Origin: Halonatronum saccharophilum DSM 13868 | GTDB lineage: Bacteria > Bacillota > Halanaerobiia > Halobacteroidales > Halobacteroidaceae | Length of the DNA stretch: 49,005 bases | Assembly (NCBI RefSeq): GCF_000517025.1 | Contig: NZ_KI912092.1 | Coordinates: 39,619 to 88,623 of the forward strand | Direction: 5' to 3' | Part shown: positions 34,764 to 44,295 of the stretch, one piece after another | Layout: each line of letters opens with the position of its first letter | Numbering within the stretch: the stretch's first letter is position 1 | Program-made: the position numbers and the translations under genes | The notes under the pieces: generated by a model | Seen by the model: the letters and a program-made list of their open reading frames with translations, nothing else | What the model was told of the DNA's origin: nothing | Databases searched by the model: none

Positions 34764-34806
34764 CACTAGCGTTGCATTGTTAGAAAATAACAATGCAACG
34801 CTAGTG
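34764..34806. other. perfect 19-bp inverted repeat upstream of hydC
   Basis: Arm CACTAGCGTTGCATTGTTA, 5-nt spacer GAAAA, then its exact complement. It is less AT-rich than the surroundings and unlike the repeat family elsewhere in the window. No T-run follows. Function unknown. Confidence 0.7.
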
Positions 34807-34875: not shown

Positions 34876-35193
34876 TCACTCAATAAGTTCCTTACTCTTT
34901 TCTGCAATAAGTTCAGGATAATCAAGATGAATATAGTGACCAGCATCTAATATGAAATATTCTCCAGCAGTTGCTTTGGCATAAGAAACCAAACTTTCCT
35001 CCCATAATTCATCTTCATTCTCATTAGAGATGAAGATATGAAAAGGAAGATCAGTTTTTCCACTATCGAACACAGTCTTAGCATTAGTTTTTACCATATT
35101 TAATTCTTCTTTCATATTACTTGTTTGAACACGACGATAAAATATTGTTCTAGCTACTTTAGCTTCCTCTTCTGTTAAATGCCCCTTTTTCAT
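34876..35193 (-). pseudogene. C-terminal fragment of an alpha/beta hydrolase
   Basis: A 105-aa ORF with a ribosome site (GGGGGG, 7 nt before ATG). It ends AGHYIHLDYPELIAEKSKELI, the usual C-terminus of an alpha/beta-hydrolase with the catalytic histidine, and FHIFISNENEDELWEESL matches the preceding strand and acid-residue region. The nucleophile elbow (G-x-S-x-G) and the first two thirds of the fold are missing, so hydrolase activity is not possible. Most likely a remnant left by a deletion; the proximity (24 nt) to the upstream barrel gene fits a deletion joint. Confidence 0.65.
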
Positions 35194-35217: not shown

Positions 35218-36129
35218 TTAATAACTATTAACTATATTAAACTTAAATCTATGCTCTCCCTTATTATCTATAAAATACTTATAACGAAAATCCACTGGTC
35301 CCATTTCATATGATAATCCAATTCCTACAGTAGCATTTAAACTCAAATCATCAATACCTTCATCCTCAGCCAAAATATCACCAATATTAATTGAAGTAAC
35401 TAAGTCCATCATTTCAATTCCAAAAATCCCACTTTGAGAAAAAGAATCAAACCTTCTTTCCAACCTAAGATTTATACGCTTTGTTCCTTCTTTGTCTTGA
35501 GAATGACCAATCAAATAATGTTCCAACTCATAGTAAGGCTTTAGCTTATCTGAACCTTTAATATATCCTAATTCGGGGATGATTGTATAATTGCCTAGTT
35601 TTATAGGTAACTTCAAATTAGAAATATAATAAATATCATCACCATCAGTTTGACCAGAGCTAATATCTAAAAAAAGATGAACTTCTTTACCCCAACTATA
35701 ATATAACTCCCTTCGGTAATTACAATTAAAATAAATAGTCTCTATCTCTTCACCTTCATCTTTAACTTCTCCATTAAAAATAGCTAAATTTAAATTTTCT
35801 CCCAAAGCTCTTTGATAATTTAAATTAACTTTAGCCCCTTCTTCAGAAATGTAGCCTGGAAGGTTATAATTATACCAATTATTATATTTGGCATCTAAGC
35901 TAAGTTGAGGATTAATTTGATATTTAGTACCTAAATTATAATGCATTTCTTCTGTCTCAAAACCATATCCCAAACCAGCATAAAGTGCCCACTCTTCTAA
36001 ATGATAATCTCCTTTAATTCCAATTATTCCTTCAAAAGGAAATATTGGGTTGAAGCCTAAAGATGCCTTAGCCGGTGAAACAAGTAATATATTGATCATT
36101 AATACTAAAAATATAATTGATTTTTTCAT
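35218..36129 (-). CDS. secreted beta-barrel-like protein, unknown function
   Basis: A 303-aa protein with a signal peptide (MKKSIIFLVLMINILLVSPA, cleavage after AKA). The mature part is a chain of amphipathic strands with aromatic girdles (LYAGLGYGFETEEMHYNLG, DFRYKYFIDNKGEHRFKF), typical of outer-membrane barrels of roughly 14-18 strands. No family recognised. Third in direction after the LolA-like and porin-like genes (gap 59 nt), suggesting a shared envelope function. Confidence 0.75.
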   Translation of the reverse strand: MKKSIIFLVLMINILLVSPAKASLGFNPIFPFEGIIGIKGDYHLEEWALYAGLGYGFETEEMHYNLGTKYQINPQLSLDAKYNNWYNYNLPGYISEEGAKVNLNYQRALGENLNLAIFNGEVKDEGEEIETIYFNCNYRRELYYSWGKEVHLFLDISSGQTDGDDIYYISNLKLPIKLGNYTIIPELGYIKGSDKLKPYYELEHYLIGHSQDKEGTKRINLRLERRFDSFSQSGIFGIEMMDLVTSINIGDILAEDEGIDDLSLNATVGIGLSYEMGPVDFRYKYFIDNKGEHRFKFNIVNSY

Positions 36130-36188
36130 CTTTTATCACCCGTTCTTGTTATATAGTGTGGATGTGAGTAAAATCAAGACCATTAAAA

Positions 36189-37154
36189 TCAAAATAAATC
36201 TACTATCATCTTAAACTTAACCTCCCAACCATCGAAACTATCAATAAAATCATTAAGATTAACTACTTCCAAGTTAGGAGTAAAATCATCCAATCCTAAA
36301 TAAGATAAATTCAAGCTTCGCTGTTGGCCAGAATCATCTAAACTAACAGTATATGCCAAATTCCAACTCCAATCATTTGAAGTATTATTATTTCTTAACG
36401 ACAAAAACAAAAAATCATCATCTTCACGATAATACTCTCCAATAATCAATTTATTCTCTGTATAATAACTAGCCCCTAATAAAAACTTTTCTTTAAAATC
36501 ATCCTCTTCTAAATGATAATTAAGATTAAAGCTAGAATAAAAGAGTAAATCATTTAAAAAATCCTTAGAATAATCTACTCCTAAATTAAGTTCTTCTAAA
36601 TCATCTTCTAAATAAGAAAGTACTAAACCATAATCACTTGTATATAATAATCTTTCCAGCTTAAACCAGCCACTAGATAAACTCTCATTGTCTTGATCCA
36701 TAGCTAATCCAAAGTCTAAATCATAACCTCTATAAAAGAAATTTGCTTCTGTTCCTAAATAAATCTCATCATCTTCTAAAGGGTAAGTTGGAGAAGAGCT
36801 AAATCCTTCACTCCAGCCCCAATCTTTTTTTCCTACTTCTAAAAAAGTTGGCCCTAAAAAAGTACTTACCGTAGCTTGTTCTATCTGGGTTGAAAACTCA
36901 CTTCCATCTAAATTCAAATCTAATCTATATTGATAATCCCCTAAAAGTCCCCAAACACCCAAATTTAGTTTAGAAGTATTAGCAATCATATCTATATCCT
37001 CTAATTGACCAGTTGATTGATTTATTCTTTCTCCCCTAATATAACTAAATTCATTGGCCAACTCACCACTTATCTCAACTGCTCTAACCTCAACTGATAG
37101 ACAAAATAACATTAGTAAAATAACCAAGGAAAAGTTCATCTTAAACCTCTTCAT
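36189..37154 (-). CDS. porin-like secreted beta-barrel protein
   Basis: A 321-aa protein with a signal peptide (cleavage after VRA). The mature start EISGELANEFSYIRGERIN and the many short alternating strands (LGVWGLLGDYQYRLDLNL, NWSWNLAYTVSL region) look like a DUF1302-type or porin-like outer-membrane barrel. The ATG at 37154 is chosen because AGGTG is 6-7 nt upstream; a GTG three codons earlier is the alternative. It starts 19 nt after the LolA-like gene, so both are co-transcribed. Confidence 0.75.
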   Translation of the reverse strand: MKRFKMNFSLVILLMLFCLSVEVRAVEISGELANEFSYIRGERINQSTGQLEDIDMIANTSKLNLGVWGLLGDYQYRLDLNLDGSEFSTQIEQATVSTFLGPTFLEVGKKDWGWSEGFSSSPTYPLEDDEIYLGTEANFFYRGYDLDFGLAMDQDNESLSSGWFKLERLLYTSDYGLVLSYLEDDLEELNLGVDYSKDFLNDLLFYSSFNLNYHLEEDDFKEKFLLGASYYTENKLIIGEYYREDDDFLFLSLRNNNTSNDWSWNLAYTVSLDDSGQQRSLNLSYLGLDDFTPNLEVVNLNDFIDSFDGWEVKFKMIVDLF

Positions 37155-37173
37155 CTTTATCACCTGCCTTTGA

Positions 37174-37935
37174 TTACAATTGGTTCAAAATCAATTCTAT
37201 ATCCCCCATCCGATTAGATTGAAATAGCCTACTAGGCAAATCTTTTTCTACAATATCTATATATCTAAGCTCAGTTTTACGATCTCTATTTTGTAATAAA
37301 TCCTCAATTATTAAATCAGCAATCCTATGACCATTAACGTCTCGATATTCTTGATAACTTACCTTTCTAAGTTGAGTTCCTCCTGAATCCTTTAAGATTA
37401 CAGCCTTAAAATAACCATCATTAGTAATTCTAACCTTGGCCCGCTGATAGACCATAGCTCTTTCATTAGCTTTAAGCTCTAAAATATAATCTTTATCTTC
37501 TCTACTTACACCTTTAATTCCATAATCATTATAATAATCAAGTCCTACAGTTTCACCAATTCCAGCATCTCCAAATAGTCTTTGATTAGCCGAAACTCTA
37601 ATTGGTCTTCTCAGTCCGTCTTGATACATCCAAGTATTATAACCGACTACTAAATACCTTTGATCCCTTAATCTTTCAGGGCCAACAAAGGTAGCCAACT
37701 GCTTCTCTCCAGCTTGATAAAGATAAACCTTTAAATGTGCTCTATCTTCTTCTCCATCTTCCCGAACAATATTTTCTATTTCTAAGATATAAGAACACGT
37801 AAAATTACCTCTATTATAAGCTAACTCTAACAAATCTTCTGCTTCTTTTAAACTAATTGCTTCTATAGGAACAGATACAAAAACCACTAATAACAATACA
37901 ATTAACCCTTTTTCAATCCAATTTTTATTTATCAT
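37174..37935 (-). CDS. LolA-like outer-membrane lipoprotein-sorting protein
   Basis: A 253-aa protein with a signal peptide (cleavage after IEA). The mature domain matches the LolA-like family: YNTWMYQDGLRRPIRVSANQ near 100-118, then a long strand run and VSYQEYRDVNGHRIADLI near 204-221, a hydrophobic-lined half barrel that carries lipids or lipid tails. Such proteins in diderm bacteria ferry lipoproteins or lipids toward the outer membrane. Neighbours are a FtsX/LolD-type ABC transporter upstream and two barrel proteins downstream, a consistent envelope-transport set. Confidence 0.87.
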   Translation of the reverse strand: MINKNWIEKGLIVLLLVVFVSVPIEAISLKEAEDLLELAYNRGNFTCSYILEIENIVREDGEEDRAHLKVYLYQAGEKQLATFVGPERLRDQRYLVVGYNTWMYQDGLRRPIRVSANQRLFGDAGIGETVGLDYYNDYGIKGVSREDKDYILELKANERAMVYQRAKVRITNDGYFKAVILKDSGGTQLRKVSYQEYRDVNGHRIADLIIEDLLQNRDRKTELRYIDIVEKDLPSRLFQSNRMGDIELILNQL

Positions 37936-37982
37936 ATACTTCCCTCCCGATTTATTTTAATTTATATATCCCTACTAAATAT

Positions 37983-39614
37983 TCATCTTTTAGCCAAATA
38001 CTCAGGATAGTAGTTAGAAAAGAAGCCAGTAAACTTTAAACCTAAGATAATCAATAAATAAAGCAAGGGGGAGAGGTTCATATAACCATAACTCTTTAAA
38101 GCTATTACTACTAGCACCTGTATAAAAAATATTCCAACCCAAAATAGAGTTATTATATTATTAGTTCTAATGAATATAGGATTTTTCTCCATAGCTTTAG
38201 GATAATCATACTTTGAATATTCACTAGTTAAAGGCTTATTAATAAAAACTGAAGTTAACCAAATTGCTGCAATTGAAAAGTGATTGAGTTCAATTCCAAT
38301 ATTCTTTATATCTACATATCCAAGAAGCCCTATGATAGATAGAATAGAAAAGTAAAGAAGGTTAGATCTCTCAAAATAACTAACCTCATACTTATTCCTC
38401 TTTAAAAAAACTATAACTAAGCTGACCAAAAGAGGGAGTACAATTCCTAAAAAGAGGCTTCGCTCTATGAAGATCCAAGAAAATATCCAAGGTATAAAGG
38501 ATAGGTTCATCGCTTTTATCCCTGTTAGAAAAGAACTCTCTTTAGCTTCTATAGAAATATCAGAAGTATCAAAATCATCATCATCTCCAGAACCAAAGAA
38601 GTTATCCAGCTCCATCATCAACTTAAAGTCTCCCTCAACCTTATAAAGTCCATCCATCATAGCCTTGGCCCCATCTAGCCGACCATCAGATATCTCCCGC
38701 CAAACCTCTGTAGTTGTGACTACCTTAGTTCTAAAGTCTCCACTCTTTCCTTTCTTCAACTCACAACTTCGATCTTTAATAATAAAGTGATTAACTTCTT
38801 GAGTATCGGTAAACTCAAATTCTAAGATACATTCTAAGTCACCAGCACCTTTAGGGTTGAAAGTATGTTTCATCAAATTTAAGAGATGATATCCTTGCTC
38901 TGATTTGTATTTGTTTTCTTCTTTCTCATCATACCTTGAATTTGCCATATCTAAAAAATCATCCATAGGTACAAGGGGCTTCTTCAAAGTCTGCTTTATC
39001 TCATCACTAAAAGAAGCTTCTTTAACAAACTCTCGACCACTTTGGCGAACTGCTTCTAAATACCAAGCTATTCTCCTCTCTAAAGCTTTAACTGAGAGCA
39101 GCTCTCCCATTACAGTTAAGATTCTCTCATCTATAGAAGCAACCTTATTAAACTCTTCTATTAAAACCTCAAAGTTATGATCTTCAGGAAAACCAGCGGT
39201 AGAAATTAATACTTCTTTCTTCTCCTTTACTTCATACCTTCCTGGATGACCATAAACACCATCACAATCAACTATCTCTGGTTTAGCCAAAGGAAGTGTT
39301 CTTTCGATAAACCTCTTAGTTAAAGATGTCATCCCATAATGGTAAAGAGGTGTTGCCCAGATAATCATATCTGACTTTAACAACTTAGGAATTAATTCAT
39401 CCATACTATCTCTAAAGATACACTTTCCAGGAGTCTTCTCCCAACAAGAAAAACAACCTGTACATCCATTAATTTCTTTATCTTTCAATTCCACATAATC
39501 TATCTTAAAATCTGAAATTTCATCCTTAACCCCTAAGATGAAGTTATCTACCAACTTTGCCGTATTTCCTTTCTTACCTTTAGGGCTTCCATTTAAAATT
39601 AATATTTTCTCCAT
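37983..39614 (-). CDS. fusion of iron-sulfur flavodoxin, SCP2 domain and membrane domain
   Basis: A 543-aa three-part protein. Residues 1-200: NAD(P)H-dependent FMN reductase/flavodoxin fold (ILNGSPKGKKGNTAKL) with the cysteine motif C-x2-C-x2-C-x7-C (CTGCFSCWEKTPGKC), as in iron-sulfur flavoproteins. About 240-345: SCP2 sterol-carrier-like domain (WREISDGRLDGAKAMMDG, then YKVEGDFKLMMELD), which binds a lipid-like molecule. About 365-540: five or six membrane helices. The ATG at 39614 has GAGG 7 nt upstream. The combination suggests a membrane-bound reductase for a lipophilic substrate; the substrate is unknown. It lies between ABC permease and LolA-like genes. Confidence 0.8.
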   Translation of the reverse strand: MEKILILNGSPKGKKGNTAKLVDNFILGVKDEISDFKIDYVELKDKEINGCTGCFSCWEKTPGKCIFRDSMDELIPKLLKSDMIIWATPLYHYGMTSLTKRFIERTLPLAKPEIVDCDGVYGHPGRYEVKEKKEVLISTAGFPEDHNFEVLIEEFNKVASIDERILTVMGELLSVKALERRIAWYLEAVRQSGREFVKEASFSDEIKQTLKKPLVPMDDFLDMANSRYDEKEENKYKSEQGYHLLNLMKHTFNPKGAGDLECILEFEFTDTQEVNHFIIKDRSCELKKGKSGDFRTKVVTTTEVWREISDGRLDGAKAMMDGLYKVEGDFKLMMELDNFFGSGDDDDFDTSDISIEAKESSFLTGIKAMNLSFIPWIFSWIFIERSLFLGIVLPLLVSLVIVFLKRNKYEVSYFERSNLLYFSILSIIGLLGYVDIKNIGIELNHFSIAAIWLTSVFINKPLTSEYSKYDYPKAMEKNPIFIRTNNIITLFWVGIFFIQVLVVIALKSYGYMNLSPLLYLLIILGLKFTGFFSNYYPEYLAKR

Positions 39615-39694
39615 TTTCACACCTCTCTATATTTTTATTTGTTAAACTAAATTAATATATAGTGACAAAATTTAATTATCAACTCTAAACCCAT

Positions 39695-40891
39695 CTAAAC
39701 ATACCTTAAGGTCTCAACAACATTTAACCTCGCTGCTTTGAATGCAGGATAAAGAGCCGATAATCCAGTTGAAATCAAAACTAAAAAGAAAGGAATAATC
39801 CCATTTTTAACTGCCATATTAATAGCAAAAGGAACCTCTTGGCTTGCATCTGGAGGTAGATAGGTTAGATTTGCCCCATTAATCCAACTTCCTAGACCAA
39901 ATCCACAAATAATTCCAAGCAACCCTCCAATAACCCCTAAAATCAAAGCCTCTTGAAATAACTGGGAAAAGACCTGACTACGTCTAGTACCTATAGCCCT
40001 AATAGTCCCAATCTCATTCATCCGTTCAAAAAAGGACATAGACATAATCTCTAAAATACTAAAGAAGACTAAAACAAAGATTATAACCGCTAAAAATAAG
40101 AATACCATATCGTAAAGTCCTTTAATCTGATAATAAGCTTCTGCTAAATCTAGCCAACTTTTAACCTCAACACTTAAACCTGCTTCTTCAAAATCTTTTT
40201 CTAAGTTATTTACTATTTCTTCAAGTTGAGCATTCTCATTTAAAGTAACCTTAAATTTATCTACGCCATCTACATTTAAAATCTCTTGAGCAAAGCCAAT
40301 TGGTATTATTACAAAATTATTATCTGCCATACTAGAACCAGTCGAAAAGCCTCCAGTTACCTTTAAACTTCGAGCACTATAAGCACCTTGGGGAGTAGTA
40401 GTCATAATCGAAACCCACTCATCAATATCTACATTTAGTTGTTTTTTAACCCCACTTCCTAATAAAATCCTAGCTCGATCACCAAAAAATAGATTAGTTC
40501 CTGATTCAATCATTATTGATGACTCACTATCCAGCTCAATCCCCTCACCAAAGACAGGAATACTATTGTCTTCTGTTCCTAAGATTCCAGTAAGTCCAAG
40601 AGTAGGAGTATAATCTCTAATATCTTCTTCTCCACTAAATATCTCTTCAATCTTTACTATATCATCTCGACTTAATAATCTCCGCTTACTATCTTCAAGA
40701 TCCCAAAATCCTTCTTTAGCTACCTGAAAATAACCATTACGAGCAACTTCCATCCACTTTAAACCTTGGTAGGTATCCTCTACATAACCTATAGCTAAAA
40801 ATAAAAAGGTAGTACTGATTACGATAATAATTAAACTTAATAATGTCCGCCGTTTATTTCTTAAGATATTTCTTAATGCTATCTTAAACAC
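39695..40891 (-). CDS. FtsX/MacB-type ABC transporter permease (LolC/E-like)
   Basis: A 398-aa permease with the MacB/LolCE plan: one N-terminal helix (TLLSLIIIVISTTFLFLAIG), a large extracytoplasmic domain (about 50-260), then three C-terminal helices with FERMNEIGTIRAIGTRRSQVF and the ending YPAFKAARLNVVETLRYV. Such permeases do not move solutes through but pull lipoproteins or peptides out of the membrane. It overlaps the ATPase gene by 8 nt. With the LolA-like protein next door, lipoprotein or lipid extraction toward the outer membrane is the best guess. Confidence 0.92.
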   Translation of the reverse strand: MFKIALRNILRNKRRTLLSLIIIVISTTFLFLAIGYVEDTYQGLKWMEVARNGYFQVAKEGFWDLEDSKRRLLSRDDIVKIEEIFSGEEDIRDYTPTLGLTGILGTEDNSIPVFGEGIELDSESSIMIESGTNLFFGDRARILLGSGVKKQLNVDIDEWVSIMTTTPQGAYSARSLKVTGGFSTGSSMADNNFVIIPIGFAQEILNVDGVDKFKVTLNENAQLEEIVNNLEKDFEEAGLSVEVKSWLDLAEAYYQIKGLYDMVFLFLAVIIFVLVFFSILEIMSMSFFERMNEIGTIRAIGTRRSQVFSQLFQEALILGVIGGLLGIICGFGLGSWINGANLTYLPPDASQEVPFAINMAVKNGIIPFFLVLISTGLSALYPAFKAARLNVVETLRYV

Positions 40892-41570
40892 CTATTCCCA
40901 CCTCCTTTAATACCCCATCTTGAATCTTGAGCAATCGTTTAGCATAATCATTAATAGCCAAATCGTGGGTTACAACTATAAAAGCTACTTCTTTAGTTTG
41001 ATTTAAATCAAGCATCAATTTAATAATCCCTTTACCAGTCTTGGTATCTAAGCTTGCTGTAGGCTCATCTGCTAAAACTACTTTAGGATCTGTTACAAGT
41101 GCCCTAGCAATTGCCACCCGCTGCTTTTGACCACCTGACAGTTGTGAAGGAAGATTATCCTTTACCTCCTCTAAACCTACCTGTTTTAAAATCTTATCTA
41201 CCCTCTTTTTCCTCTCTGATTTATTTACTTTCTGTAACAACAAGGGATATTCAACATTCTCCCAAGCACTTAGGACTGGTATTAATTCAAAACTTTGAAA
41301 TACTAGACCAACCTTATCCCGTCTAAGTAAAGTATTCTCTTTATCACTTAAACTACTTAAAGCTAAACCATTGATATATAGCTCTCCCTTAGTAGCCTTG
41401 TCAATTCCTGCTAATAAATTAAGTAAAGTAGTCTTCCCACTACCAGAAGGGCCATTAATCACTACAAAGTCTCCTGCCTCAATAGTCAAATTAGCCTCTT
41501 TTAAGGCTATAATTTCTTCTACCTGACTAAGATAAGATTTGCTTACTCCTTCAGCTTTAATAATTGACAT
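40884..41570 (-). CDS. LolD/MacB-type ABC transporter ATP-binding protein
   Basis: A 228-aa ATPase with Walker A GPSGSGKTTLL near 41-51, Q-loop VFQSFELIPVLSAWENVEYP, signature LSGGQKQRVAIARAL near 141, Walker B VVLADEPTASLD near 163-174 and H-loop VTHD. The sequence belongs to the LolD/FtsE/MacB class and pairs with the downstream permease. The ATG at 41570 has GGAGGG 7 nt upstream; an in-frame TTG two codons earlier is the alternative. It overlaps the TPR-protein gene by 14 nt. Confidence 0.94.
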   Translation of the reverse strand: MSIIKAEGVSKSYLSQVEEIIALKEANLTIEAGDFVVINGPSGSGKTTLLNLLAGIDKATKGELYINGLALSSLSDKENTLLRRDKVGLVFQSFELIPVLSAWENVEYPLLLQKVNKSERKKRVDKILKQVGLEEVKDNLPSQLSGGQKQRVAIARALVTDPKVVLADEPTASLDTKTGKGIIKLMLDLNQTKEVAFIVVTHDLAINDYAKRLLKIQDGVLKEVGIGV

Positions 41571-42345
41571 AGTCAATCCCTCCCTCTAGTTCAGCTTTGG
41601 CCCATAGACTATTAGGGTAAATTTCTAGTGCCTTATTAAAGTACTCTTCTGCCTTAGTTATATCTCCTTCTTCTCGCATAATAACCCCTAACCAAATATA
41701 AGAGATAAAATTATCATGCTTATCATCACTAGCTAAGGCCCTATTTAAGCTTCTAATTGCTTTATTTCTATCTCCTCCACCAATCTCAGGCGCAAAGTAA
41801 TAATAGTTCCCTAGCGAATTTAAAGCCCTATAATTACTGCTATCCATACTTACAGCCCTTTGTAGTAACCTTAAAGACGTTGGCCCGTATTGCATCACAT
41901 ACATATTACCCCTATAATTAAATTGTCTCATATATGAGTCTGCTAATAAAGAATGAGCCTGCGAGCTAGCCTCCTCTCTTAAAGCTTTTTCTGCCAGCCC
42001 TTCAGCCTTTTGAAAGCCAATGGCTGCCCTTCTATTTTCTCCTATCGCTTCATTTATTTCAGCTAATAAAAACTCTGTTCTCCCTTGCCAATAATAACTT
42101 TCATATTTATTATTAACCTCTGTAAAAACCTCTTTACTCTCCTCTAAAAGTGAAATTGCCCTATTAATATTTTCTTTTTGCTCCTTTTCCGTCTCACCCT
42201 TTGGATTATAATATAAGCTCCTAGCCTCTAAATATAGTTCTTCACCTTCATTTAAATTACTTTGAGCATCAACCTGCAAATTAATTAAAGTAAGCATTAG
42301 TAAACAGATTAAAATAGAAAATGATAAAGATTTATTTTTCTTCAT
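41557..42345 (-). CDS. secreted TPR-repeat protein
   Basis: A 262-aa protein with a signal peptide (SLSFSILICLLMLTLINLQV, cleavage after VDA). The mature part is helical and contains tetratricopeptide repeats, clearest at ALNSLGNYYYFAPEIGGGDR and WLGVIMREEGDITKAEEYFN near 217-236. TPR proteins are scaffolds for protein complexes. First gene of the ABC-LolA-barrel unit, overlapping the ATPase gene, so it probably works with that transporter on the outer side of the inner membrane. Confidence 0.8.
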   Translation of the reverse strand: MKKNKSLSFSILICLLMLTLINLQVDAQSNLNEGEELYLEARSLYYNPKGETEKEQKENINRAISLLEESKEVFTEVNNKYESYYWQGRTEFLLAEINEAIGENRRAAIGFQKAEGLAEKALREEASSQAHSLLADSYMRQFNYRGNMYVMQYGPTSLRLLQRAVSMDSSNYRALNSLGNYYYFAPEIGGGDRNKAIRSLNRALASDDKHDNFISYIWLGVIMREEGDITKAEEYFNKALEIYPNSLWAKAELEGGIDYVNY

Positions 42346-42441
42346 TACTTTTATTCCTCCTTTATTTCTCTTTCTTACTTTAATTGTACTTTATTCTAAG
42401 AAAGCAATCATCTAGCTAAAGGAGTAATTTAAAATAAAAAA

Positions 42442-42463
42442 AGCAGGAGATTTATCTCCTACT
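42442..42463 (-). terminator. terminator after the two-component operon
   Basis: 10-bp stem (AGTAGGAGAT / ATCTCCTGCT on the minus strand, one G-U) with 2-nt centre and T-run. It separates the sensor kinase gene from the TPR-ABC unit. Nearly the same stem as the terminator at 44268-44295. Confidence 0.85.
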
Positions 42464-42488
42464 AAAGTATGAAAATCTATTCTATATT

Positions 42489-43547
42489 TTAAATAATAAC
42501 CTTAATAATGGTTCCCTCACCCAATTTTGAATTTATCTCAAACTTACCAGTTACCTCTTCTACCCTTTCTTCTACACCTTTTAAACCAAGATGACCTGCT
42601 TTATTCTTTAGCTGCTCAATATCAAAACCTTGCCCATTATCTTTAATCATTAATTTAGCAGATTCTGGTCTTAAAATAATTAGATTTATATTTACCTTAG
42701 TTGCTTTAGCATGTTTTATCACATTATTTAAAGATTCTTGAATTATTCTATATAAAGCCAATTTTACTTTATAACTTAGTAACTGCTCATCTCCTTTAAG
42801 AGAAGGTTTAATATCAAGATTATACCTTCCACGGTATAGATTAATTAAATCCTCAACAGCCACAAAAAAATCCTTATCTTCTAAATTATTTGGTCTTAAT
42901 TCATAAATCATAAGCCGCATCTCAGTCTGAACTTCCTCAACCATCTCTTTTGATAACTTTATCACCTCTTTAGACTTTTTAATATCTATATCTAAAAATC
43001 CCTCTAGAGTATTTAACTGTAGGTTAATCCCAAATAGGTTCTGAGATACAGAATCATGCAATTCTCGAGCTATTCTATTTCGCTCTTCTAAGACAGCTAG
43101 TTTCTTATTTTCTTTCTCTAATCGAAGGGCTTCCTCCTGTTTATCTAATGCATAATAAAAAACAGAAATCATAACAGAAATAACTCCAACACCTAAACTA
43201 ATATAAAATGTATAAGGACCAGATATAAAATCAGAAACAAAAATACTAAAAACTTTAACTACCAAATTATAAGTTACTACACTAACAAAAAAACTATTTA
43301 TTATATGTAAAAATAAATTATTACGATAACAATAAATATATTCATTCAATAAAAGAGGCGTTATATTATTTATAACAAAGATGGAGTAACCTACTATACT
43401 TCCAAAAATAAGGTTGTTTAGTAATAATTTAAAATTGAAACCATTATAGGGATAGAAGGTGAAAAAATAAAACATTGTAACTCCAATCCCTATCAATATC
43501 GCCTGCTTAATCTCTCCAACTAAAATCTCTTTAATCTTATCCTTCAT
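42489..43547 (-). CDS. sensor histidine kinase, DesK/NarX type (HisKA_3)
   Basis: A 352-aa kinase. Four or five membrane helices in residues 10-133 with little extracytoplasmic sequence suggest sensing of the membrane itself. Then a coiled-coil linker, the HisKA_3 dimerisation domain with phospho-accepting H164 in RIARELHDSVSQN, and the ATPase domain ending GHLGLKGVEERVEEVTGKF. The partner regulator gene is 4 nt upstream. LiaS- or DesK-like envelope or lipid-state sensing would suit the adjacent envelope-transport genes. Confidence 0.92.
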   Translation of the reverse strand: MKDKIKEILVGEIKQAILIGIGVTMFYFFTFYPYNGFNFKLLLNNLIFGSIVGYSIFVINNITPLLLNEYIYCYRNNLFLHIINSFFVSVVTYNLVVKVFSIFVSDFISGPYTFYISLGVGVISVMISVFYYALDKQEEALRLEKENKKLAVLEERNRIARELHDSVSQNLFGINLQLNTLEGFLDIDIKKSKEVIKLSKEMVEEVQTEMRLMIYELRPNNLEDKDFFVAVEDLINLYRGRYNLDIKPSLKGDEQLLSYKVKLALYRIIQESLNNVIKHAKATKVNINLIILRPESAKLMIKDNGQGFDIEQLKNKAGHLGLKGVEERVEEVTGKFEINSKLGEGTIIKVII

Positions 43548-43551
43548 AGGA

Positions 43552-44181
43552 TCACCTTTTCACTAAGTTATTATCAATAGCTTTAATTACAGCTTGAGTC
43601 CTATCATTAACATCTAATTTCTTTAAAATGTTGCTAACATGGGTTTTGACTGTTCGAGTTGATATATACAATTCTTCACCAACCTCTTTATTACTCTTCC
43701 CTTTAACTAAGCAAGCTAAGACATCTTCCTCCCTTGTAGTTAAAGGCTCTATACTAAGGTCTTTGCCAGTTGCTCTTTTCATTATCTTTTTAGCTATTCT
43801 TGGGTGTAAGACTGGCTCACCTTTACTTGCAGCGAAAATTGCTTCAACCAGCTTTTGAGGAGGGGAGTCCTTCATCAAATAACTCAATGCCCCAGCATCG
43901 ATAGCTGCTATTATCTCTTCATCCTTACTAAAGCTAGAGAGGATAATTACTTCAGTACCTATACCCTCTTTCTTAATCTGGGCTGTTATCTCTATCCCAC
44001 TAATATCACCCAAATGAAGATCAACAGTCGCAACATCTGGCTTTAACCGTTTAATCTCTTCGATAGCTTCTCTTCCGCTTTGGGATACTCCGATCACCTC
44101 TATATTATCTTGGGTAGAAAGATAACTCTCCAGCCCTTGTAAAACAAAAGGATGGTCATCAACTAAGAATACTTTAATCAT
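43552..44181 (-). CDS. NarL/LuxR-type response regulator
   Basis: A 209-aa regulator. Receiver domain with acidic DD 8-9, phospho-accepting D54 (VATVDLHLGD) and K104. C-terminal LuxR helix-turn-helix: LTTREEDVLACLVKGKSNKE near 145-164, then ISTRTVKTHVSNILKKLDV. Gene order regulator then kinase with 4-nt spacing indicates one operon. Likely targets are the downstream TPR-ABC-LolA-barrel genes, by proximity only. Confidence 0.93.
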   Translation of the reverse strand: MIKVFLVDDHPFVLQGLESYLSTQDNIEVIGVSQSGREAIEEIKRLKPDVATVDLHLGDISGIEITAQIKKEGIGTEVIILSSFSKDEEIIAAIDAGALSYLMKDSPPQKLVEAIFAASKGEPVLHPRIAKKIMKRATGKDLSIEPLTTREEDVLACLVKGKSNKEVGEELYISTRTVKTHVSNILKKLDVNDRTQAVIKAIDNNLVKR

Positions 44182-44267
44182 ATTAACCCCTACTTTCTTA
44201 ATCTTTACTTACATTATACAACTAACATCAATAATAGTCCTCTACTTTTAGTCTAATTTTGATATAA

Positions 44268-44295
44268 AAAAGTAGGAGATTAATCTCCTACTTTA
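44268..44295 (-). terminator. terminator after the AI-2E-family gene
   Basis: Stem AGTAGGAGAT / ATCTCCTACT with 2-nt centre (plus flanking A/T pairs) and a T-run on the minus strand, 22 nt past the stop. Confidence 0.9.

Follow-up and report, generated by a model that had tools for sequence, protein, structure and literature searches.

A LolD-FtsX gene unit with a LolA-like carrier and two predicted outer membrane barrels in Halonatronum saccharophilum: a candidate trans-envelope exporter of lipophilic molecules

A 49,005-nt stretch of the halophilic, diderm bacterium Halonatronum saccharophilum DSM 13868 (the window, along which coordinates are numbered) contains an envelope-transport unit of nine genes at 35218-44181, all on the minus strand. 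Our analysis leaned toward this unit exporting a lipophilic or amphiphilic molecule, be it a lipid, a lipid-like metabolite or a toxic hydrophobe, across the cell envelope under the control of the state of the membrane, and not sorting lipoproteins. A first-pass annotation, made from the sequence without database searches, had listed these nine genes, and each was recovered at its place and on its strand with the family as named, by Pfam matches for seven genes and as predicted barrels for two. In order of transcription, the genes were as follows.

43552..44181, minus strand: response regulator (RR) with a receiver and a LuxR/NarL-type helix-turn-helix (PF00072, Response_reg, 90 bits; PF00196), heading the regulator operon
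42489..43547, minus strand: histidine kinase (HK), HisKA_3 (67 bits), with 4 predicted transmembrane stretches
41557..42345, minus strand: exported TPR protein with a signal peptide and no lipobox (TPR_16, 43 bits)
40884..41576, minus strand: LolD/MacB-type ATPase (PF00005, ABC_tran, 128 bits; TIGR02211, LolD, 233 bits)
39695..40891, minus strand: FtsX/type VII permease (FtsX, 63 bits) with 4 transmembrane stretches and a periplasmic domain
37983..39620, minus strand: fusion of FMN_red (57 bits), SCP2 (34 bits) and a membrane domain
37174..37935, minus strand: LolA_like periplasmic carrier (PF17131, 62.4 bits, cut-off 30) with no lipobox
36189..37163, minus strand: omp2, an 18-strand outer membrane barrel by predicted model, probably distantly related to DUF1302 barrels
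35218..36129, minus strand: omp1, a POTRA-less Omp85-type outer membrane barrel by predicted model and fold comparison

The RR and HK genes were separated by 4 bases and the HK and TPR genes by 143 bases, and the subsequent gaps up to omp1 were -20, -8, 74, 47, 10 and 59 bases. Because the 143-base gap contrasts with the -20 to 74 bases found from TPR to omp1, RR-HK and TPR-to-omp1 are likely to be two transcription units rather than one. The membrane-sensing two-component pair of the first-pass annotation was borne out, the kinase having four transmembrane stretches and no exported sensor domain detectable by hydropathy. This kinase resembled MctS, LiaS and NarQ in part, with every score below the cut-off.

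In the proposed mechanism, for which we infer each transport step as well as the substrate class, the direction, the stoichiometry of the permease and the function of the operator, the LolD-FtsX complex would extract the molecule from the inner membrane. Docked on a family-specific loop of the permease, the PF17131 carrier would then shield it across the periplasm, with the TPR protein assisting. In the outer membrane, omp2 would serve as a channel-type receiver, and omp1 may open laterally, either to insert the molecule or to release it. The state of the membrane would be sensed by the intramembrane kinase, and the regulator would act via a palindrome situated before both operons.

The core of the unit, consisting of TPR, LolD, FtsX, LolA_like, omp2 and omp1, recurred in this order with some losses and mostly beside a two-component system. 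A scan with the permease alignment detected 20 loci, comprising 10 Bacillota units, 5 loci from Bipolaricaulota or uncultured bacteria, 2 from Dehalococcoidia and 3 distant loci from Elusimicrobia (L057-L059, 25% identity), which were excluded from the unit count. Two loci with 97.5 to 97.9% identical DNA (L031 and L056) were counted as one unit, and there were 11 distinct Bacillota units (the window, L031/L056, L040-L046, L048 and L049). FtsX and LolD were present in 11 of 11 units (LolD by tblastn in L031, L044 and L056), as were the carrier (by tblastn in L046) and omp2. The TPR gene was found in 9 of 11 units, there being none in Orenia (L045) and a 30-residue remnant in L044, and omp1 was found in 7 of 10 (none in L042, L045 or L049; L044 ends earlier and was not counted). 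A kinase or regulator gene adjoined 9 of 11 units, with a kinase only in L040 and in L046, the latter lying at a contig end. As the loci had been selected by permease or carrier and several of the units had helped to build each profile, the counts for FtsX and the carrier are circular, and it is the TPR protein, the barrels and the regulators that provide the real test of co-conservation. Some genes from metagenome-assembled genomes were split, such as the kinase and ATPase genes of L049. A chance assembly of genes was ruled out by the recurring gene order in distant Bacillota.

The distribution of the unit was restricted. Among 398 genomes of the phylum, the carrier had matches in 14 at an E value of 1e-6 or better and in 7, including the window genome, at 1e-28 or better. 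Matches to the window TPR protein (E value of 1e-8) were detected in 10 of the 398 genomes and these contained all 7 strong-carrier genomes, although the TPR protein was an imperfect marker since 3 of the 10 (G004, G114 and G260) had no such unit there. In the order, represented by a sample of 13 genomes and perhaps delimited more narrowly by GTDB than the Halanaerobiales of NCBI (which places Orenia in the Halobacteroidaceae, Halanaerobiales), a close ortholog of the carrier occurred in 2 genomes, ruling out a unit general to the order. The co-conservation across diderm Firmicutes that the first-pass annotation had put up for checking was found in as much as the set recurs in 11 Bacillota units, but not as a general feature. 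Outside Bacillota, the Bipolaricaulota or uncultured loci retained the permease with the TPR protein (L047 and L050), the carrier (L051), both (L055) or neither (L054), and an omp1-like gene was situated ∼4 kb further on in L051. The two Dehalococcoidia loci (L052:5476-8647 and L053:3-2937) had a LolD-FtsX-FtsX arrangement related to the window permease, with no carrier or barrel in these loci.

The unit resembles the Lol route in its working, as both LolCDE-LolA-LolB and the window unit combine a type VII ABC transporter having a LolD-like ATPase with a LolA-fold carrier toward the outer membrane. A true lipoprotein route of the LolDF-like kind, in which FtsX-LolD would extract lipoproteins, the LolA_like protein would ferry them and a barrel would substitute for LolB, was nevertheless judged unlikely. 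The best NCBIfam names (LolD with 233 bits and lolCE with 85 bits) and the best solved relatives of the permease profile (LolE, LolF and LolC) favor such a route, and a 2016 study reported homologues of LolA, LolC/E, LolD and Lnt in Halanaerobiales (PMC5007114). A 2024 review regards Halanaerobiales as unique among diderm Terrabacteria in having a Lol pathway (PMC11784454). By sequence, however, the unit fails Lol membership because the carrier does not belong to PF03548 and the permease is without the LolC Hook; dedicated barrels, a single permease gene and the lack of a LolB in the unit are further differences. The window carrier matched PF17131 and not PF03548, and its best solved relative was 3buu (110 bits with the family profile). 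None of the 13 genomes of the order had a match to PF03548, the LolA family, above the cut-off; two matches were below it, one of them in a broken frame, and PF17131 was present in 13 of 13. Both equivalog scores were below their cut-offs, at 85.2 of 362.45 bits for lolCE and 233 of 307.75 bits for LolD.

The Hook of Escherichia coli LolC (aa 167-179; LolC/LolF Hook) is required for recruitment of LolA (PMC10865981). At this position, the window permease has TTTPQGAYSARS, which in the alignment is 6 residues shorter, and a conserved TTxDGAYNA-type loop occupies the place of the Hook, with T166, G169, A170 and Y171 invariant across 8 aligned unit permeases. The two-permease cluster of the same genome (C6, L023), presumed to be the 'Lol' cluster of PMC5007114, was also without a Hook, its pair being shortened to the same extent, and also had a barrel adjoining the carrier. 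In a permease tree, the window permease was grouped with Borrelia, plasmid, Vibrio, Bipolaricaulota, Dehalococcoidia and Bacillota permeases (23 of 36 rows; split support 100/99), and E. coli LolC/E and the C6 pairs were on the opposite side, where the C6 pairs formed a group of their own (94/88) beside E. coli LolC/E. The positions of the long branches (Borrelia, the genome's own C8, L039b and E. coli LolC) are unsure. With two gammaproteobacterial LolC/E rows, both from E. coli, the tree cannot settle transfer from that group; the transfer idea, as presented in the available part of PMC11784454, gains no support from it and is not excluded by it. No lipobox was present in the exported proteins of the unit, in agreement with the first-pass annotation that a classical lolB was not visible; this statement covers the unit, LolB not having been searched genome-wide, and LolB is missing from many genuine Lol systems (PMC11784454). 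Of the lipoprotein or lipid route that had been suggested from the sequence, ABC extraction, a LolA-fold carrier and two barrels stood, whereas lipoprotein cargo was opposed by the lack of PF03548 and of the Hook, the sub-equivalog scores and the split in the tree. The same carrier family was also paired with RND engines in 20 of 31 cases. RND engines are not known as movers of lipoproteins.

These RND pairings were detected by placing the short PF17131 genes of the order in context. In total, PF17131 had 43 matches in the 13 genomes. Twelve of the 43 were situated in open frames of 739 to 825 residues (found in 12 of 13 genomes), and in the two long frames that were scanned, a long TPR array is fused to a LolA_like-type domain (27.3 and 30.4 bits, cut-off 30). 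If all of the long frames are such fusions, they support cooperation between TPR protein and carrier. A 774-residue exported LolA_like-TPR fusion was observed on contig C5 of the window genome (L149:1480-3804) and also at L150:1510-3834. Of the remaining 31 short genes, 20 were beside an RND gene, 10 were beside FtsX and 1 was engine-less (L148), so that an ABC or RND engine was nearby in 30 of 31. MMPL was detected in the one RND protein scanned with Pfam (L139). A barrel gene followed 29 of the 31. Barrels were recognized by sequence-free criteria, namely, a signal, 250 to 560 residues, an aromatic last residue and no further membrane helix. These features were present in 27 of the 29 barrel genes and in 7 of 99 control open reading frames of similar length from the same loci; 27 of the 29 matched a barrel profile (20 members of these profiles and 7 nonmembers), and the L146 and L147 barrels were assigned by the criteria alone. 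The two exceptions, L144 and L145 (both of genus g4), had a two-permease ABC and a carrier without an adjoining barrel gene. Judged by this gene neighborhood, the LolA_like carrier and the barrel are a pair coupled in some cases to an ABC engine and in others to an RND engine. Ten regulators near such modules, picked by eye, comprised seven TetR and three MarR proteins.

Pfam gave no match above the cut-off for either omp1 or omp2, and the barrels of the unit were examined with AlphaFold2 models. The omp2 model (13-sequence alignment; predicted local distance difference test [pLDDT] score of 85.2) had a signal helix and 18 strands, and its top matches among solved structures were OprD/Occ porins and the alginate exporter AlgE, with Z scores of 21 to 23. 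The omp1 model (7-sequence alignment; pLDDT of 86.8) had a signal helix and ∼16 strands, and 50 of the 50 matches listed were Omp85 proteins (Sam50, TamA and BamA) with Z scores of 17 to 21; both fold searches speak for the matches listed, outside which a further family may lie. As omp1 has 303 residues with the barrel predicted to start at about residue 23, there is in this model no room for POTRA domains. In the omp1 family of 7 members, Pfam Omp85 was matched by 3 (best, 3.9e-6) and ShlB (ShlB/FhaC) by one. Comparison of profiles with hhalign gave 97.6% between omp2 and the RND-linked barrels and 99.7% between the RND-linked barrels and the C6 type, but just 73.5% between omp2 and the C6-cluster barrel directly, the link passing through the RND-linked barrels. 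As a negative reference, omp1 scored 0.5 to 6.4%; kinship of omp1 and omp2 was rejected, there being no sequence relation (hhalign, 1.3%). Two RND-linked barrels (L025 and L131) reached the Pfam DUF1302 cut-off, and the L147 barrel reached that of Pfam Omp85 (47.6 bits, cut-off 24).

The closest published system, as described in the available part of PMC13078400, is the BBJ23-29 cluster of Borrelia plasmid lp38, which has TPR proteins, a LolD-like ATPase, a single FtsX/MacB permease and a LolA-like carrier. The presence of a POTRA-less Omp85 protein in BBJ23-29 is that paper's own result, as is the proposal of a non-polar ligand as cargo and of possible export. Profiles of the window families matched the Borrelia permease with 202 bits, BBJ23 (TPR) with 72 bits and the LolA-like protein with 22 bits. 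The latter protein, BBJ28, had no PF17131 match, and BBJ25 was unlike omp1 by sequence (hhalign, 1.1%). BBJ29 was not accepted as a proven omp2 homologue (hidden Markov model, 16 bits; hhalign, 0.3%). Relative to BBJ23-29, the window unit has in addition a clear 18-strand barrel as well as a two-component system next to it. An unexplained Borrelia cluster is tied to free-living bacteria with a candidate operator, in which the cargo could be sought.

Other systems provided hints on cargo. AmeABCD of Castellaniella defragrans combines an inner membrane engine, a LolA-superfamily carrier (DUF1329) and a DUF1302 barrel in one cassette and raises tolerance to apolar monoterpenes, as shown by deletion (PMC6394551); it has AmeC instead of a TPR protein, and no Omp85 is named in the part of the paper available. 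YbbAP-TesA differs in having a hydrolase as its partner, with no carrier or barrel mentioned in the available part of PMC12646458. Rahnella and E. coli plasmids (L153 and L154) encode an ATPase, a permease and a PF17131 carrier (121 and 122 bits), after which comes a gene of 453 and 399 residues, respectively; the surrounding clusters also include genes for a malonyltransferase or enoyl-CoA hydratase and for a ketosynthase-like protein. The plasmid permeases fall on the window permease's side of the tree. These modules are possibly exporters of a lipid or polyketide. The gene in the barrel position of the E. coli plasmid was suggestively related, with hhalign values of 85% to omp2 and 94% to the RND-linked barrels; the corresponding Vibrio gene had values of 11% and 66%.

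These comparisons also bear on the naming of such clusters. The published lipoprotein-sorting label for the Halanaerobiales sets may be wrong, in that it may rest on a different carrier family with its own barrel; if so, the picture of how lipoprotein trafficking arose would be revised. As a tentative extension, for which we would claim less confidence than for export by the window unit, Halanaerobiales would have no lipoprotein Lol pathway, and their 'Lol' genes would be carrier-plus-dedicated-barrel exporters in which a LolA_like/barrel pair is driven by an exchangeable engine, either an ABC transporter with two permeases or one, or an RND protein. The window unit would then be a membrane-stress-controlled form with an extra POTRA-less Omp85 lipid inserter and an ancestry shared with Borrelia BBJ23-29.

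It was considered improbable that the TPR protein and the Omp85 barrel form a pair for secretion of proteins or surface lipoproteins (Slam-like or two-partner-like) whose genes simply accompany those of an efflux ABC transporter. A 9.6-kb contig of G114 (L167:498-2368) has a TPR gene paired with an omp1-like barrel gene and no ABC or carrier gene, TPR_Slam gave a weak, sub-cut-off match to the TPR protein of the E. coli plasmid, and one omp1 relative matched ShlB/FhaC, all of which are in keeping with such a pair. There was, however, no secreted partner gene in the unit; TPR and omp1, where present, were in one gene row with the ABC, carrier and omp2 genes (7 of 10 units long enough), and the gaps in the window were at most 74 bases.

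Least probable was an integral role for the FMN_red-SCP2-membrane protein in reducing a lipophilic cargo (a quinone or terpenoid) before export: the fusion gene lies within the operon, 74 and 47 bases from its neighbors, a different FMN_red protein was found at the same place in Orenia and an 83-residue FMN_red start was situated directly after omp1 at the contig end of G075 (23.3 bits, cut-off 24), but an FMN_red gene was beside 3 of 11 units only, no SCP2 domain was shown in the Orenia protein and relatives occurred in Bacillota genomes without the unit. Matches to the fusion (E value of 1e-20) were detected in 35 of the 398 genomes, the window's included; among the 34 others, 4 matched over at least 540 of 545 residues, 5 matched in two pieces and 25 matched in the flavin part only, and no relative was found in any of the 6 further genomes having a strong carrier match. 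The flavin-SCP2 fusion was ruled out as part of the core, the linked redox step of the first-pass annotation was weakened and the fusion looks like an accessory, recent neighbor.

Candidate control sites for the preferred reading, export under membrane-state control, were situated before both operons.

44272..44291, no strand assigned: palindrome GTAGGAGATTAATCTCCTAC, a candidate operator 91 bases upstream of the regulator start that also resembles a terminator
42443..42462, no strand assigned: a further copy of this palindrome (minus-strand reading, GTAGGAGATAAATCTCCTGC), 98 bases upstream of the TPR start and likewise similar to a terminator
44213..44218, minus strand: putative -10 TATAAT, chosen by eye, centered 66 bases from the palindrome center
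42383..42388, minus strand: putative -10 TACAAT, chosen by eye, centered 67 bases from the palindrome center

One copy of the palindrome GTAGGAGATWWATCTCCTRC stands upstream of the regulator operon and the other upstream of the transport operon. Its 16-base core, with up to one mismatch allowed, was found in the 2.88-Mb genome at these two places and in one single-strand match at C5:485204, and the reversed-core control gave 0 and 1. A promoter scan of the region was at chance level (43 sites found versus 43.0 expected) and carries no information. In other units, AAAAGTAGGAG..CTCCTACTTTT precedes RR in L041 and L049, and a similar palindrome was observed upstream of TPR in L042 and, in L044, upstream of the TPR remnant and the ATPase gene. 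G032 and G075 have a different palindrome, CTCCTCC..GGAGGAG, with no T-tract, ahead of a kinase or regulator gene as well as ahead of the TPR gene; this palindrome was checked in the unit loci only and not genome-wide. Such a site was present in 7 of 10 units examined (L046 not among them). Among 169 loci, many of them overlapping, the first pattern occurred in L041, L044, L049, L152 and L157, the last of which is the window's own site. The loose pattern TAGGAGN{4,8}CTCCT had 2 to 17 matches in the 7 of 8 genomes with any versus 5 to 20 for a reversed control and was rejected as evidence, being common by chance; only both-strand sites or a longer core are informative. Both-strand sites in the 8 genomes numbered 6, of which 3 were before unit genes (in the window genome, G000, and in G404 and G405) and 3 were elsewhere (one in G404 and two in G320).

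Several observations weigh against export of a lipophilic molecule under such control. The window palindromes are directly after stop codons and are followed by T-tracts, so that they can also be read as intrinsic terminators, and no such palindrome was detected at Orenia, L048 or L056. An operator appears to be the better reading where no T-tract follows, and a terminator function of the window palindromes is possible. With respect to the barrels, the window omp1 itself was without a Pfam Omp85 match, of the 13 genomes of the order, 10 had DUF1302 at an E value of 0.01 but only 2 had it above the cut-off, and never at the window omp2, and the Rahnella barrel-position gene was not supported as omp2 kin (hhalign, 2.1% to omp2 and 2 to 5% overall). 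PF17131 is not bound to outer membranes, since a control search matched three archaea as well as E. coli, Thermus and Deinobacterium, above the cut-off in 4 of these 6. No biosynthetic gene was linked to the window unit. The authors of the BBJ23-29 study, in the part available, still allow lipoproteins as cargo (PMC13078400), and AmeABCD has an RND (HAE3) engine and a DUF1329 carrier where the window has an FtsX ABC transporter and PF17131. On the supporting side, POTRA (PF07244) matches were found in 14 of 16 genomes, namely, in 11 that have a Bacillota unit and in 3 of Bipolaricaulota, and in neither of two Dehalococcoidia genomes, which are small (1.2 to 1.4 Mb) with completeness not given; this pattern is support, not proof, and the POTRA model also matched one control archaeon.

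Downstream of omp1, a short open reading frame at 34876-35193, for which a Pfam scan gave nothing above the cut-off, resembles the C-terminal end of an alpha/beta hydrolase and is perhaps a gene remnant. A stem of 19 pairs with a 5-base loop at 34764-34806, the longest among the terminator-like sites of the region, is situated between the unit and hydrogenase-like genes. Neither the membrane fusion protein nor the TolC family of a MacAB-TolC system was among the Pfam matches of the ten genes scanned. On contig C8 of the window genome (L027:6853-10064), genes for an FtsX permease, a LolD-like ATPase and a separate 423-residue protein that has a hydrophobic stretch at its N terminus form a set that looks like a MacAB-type pump.

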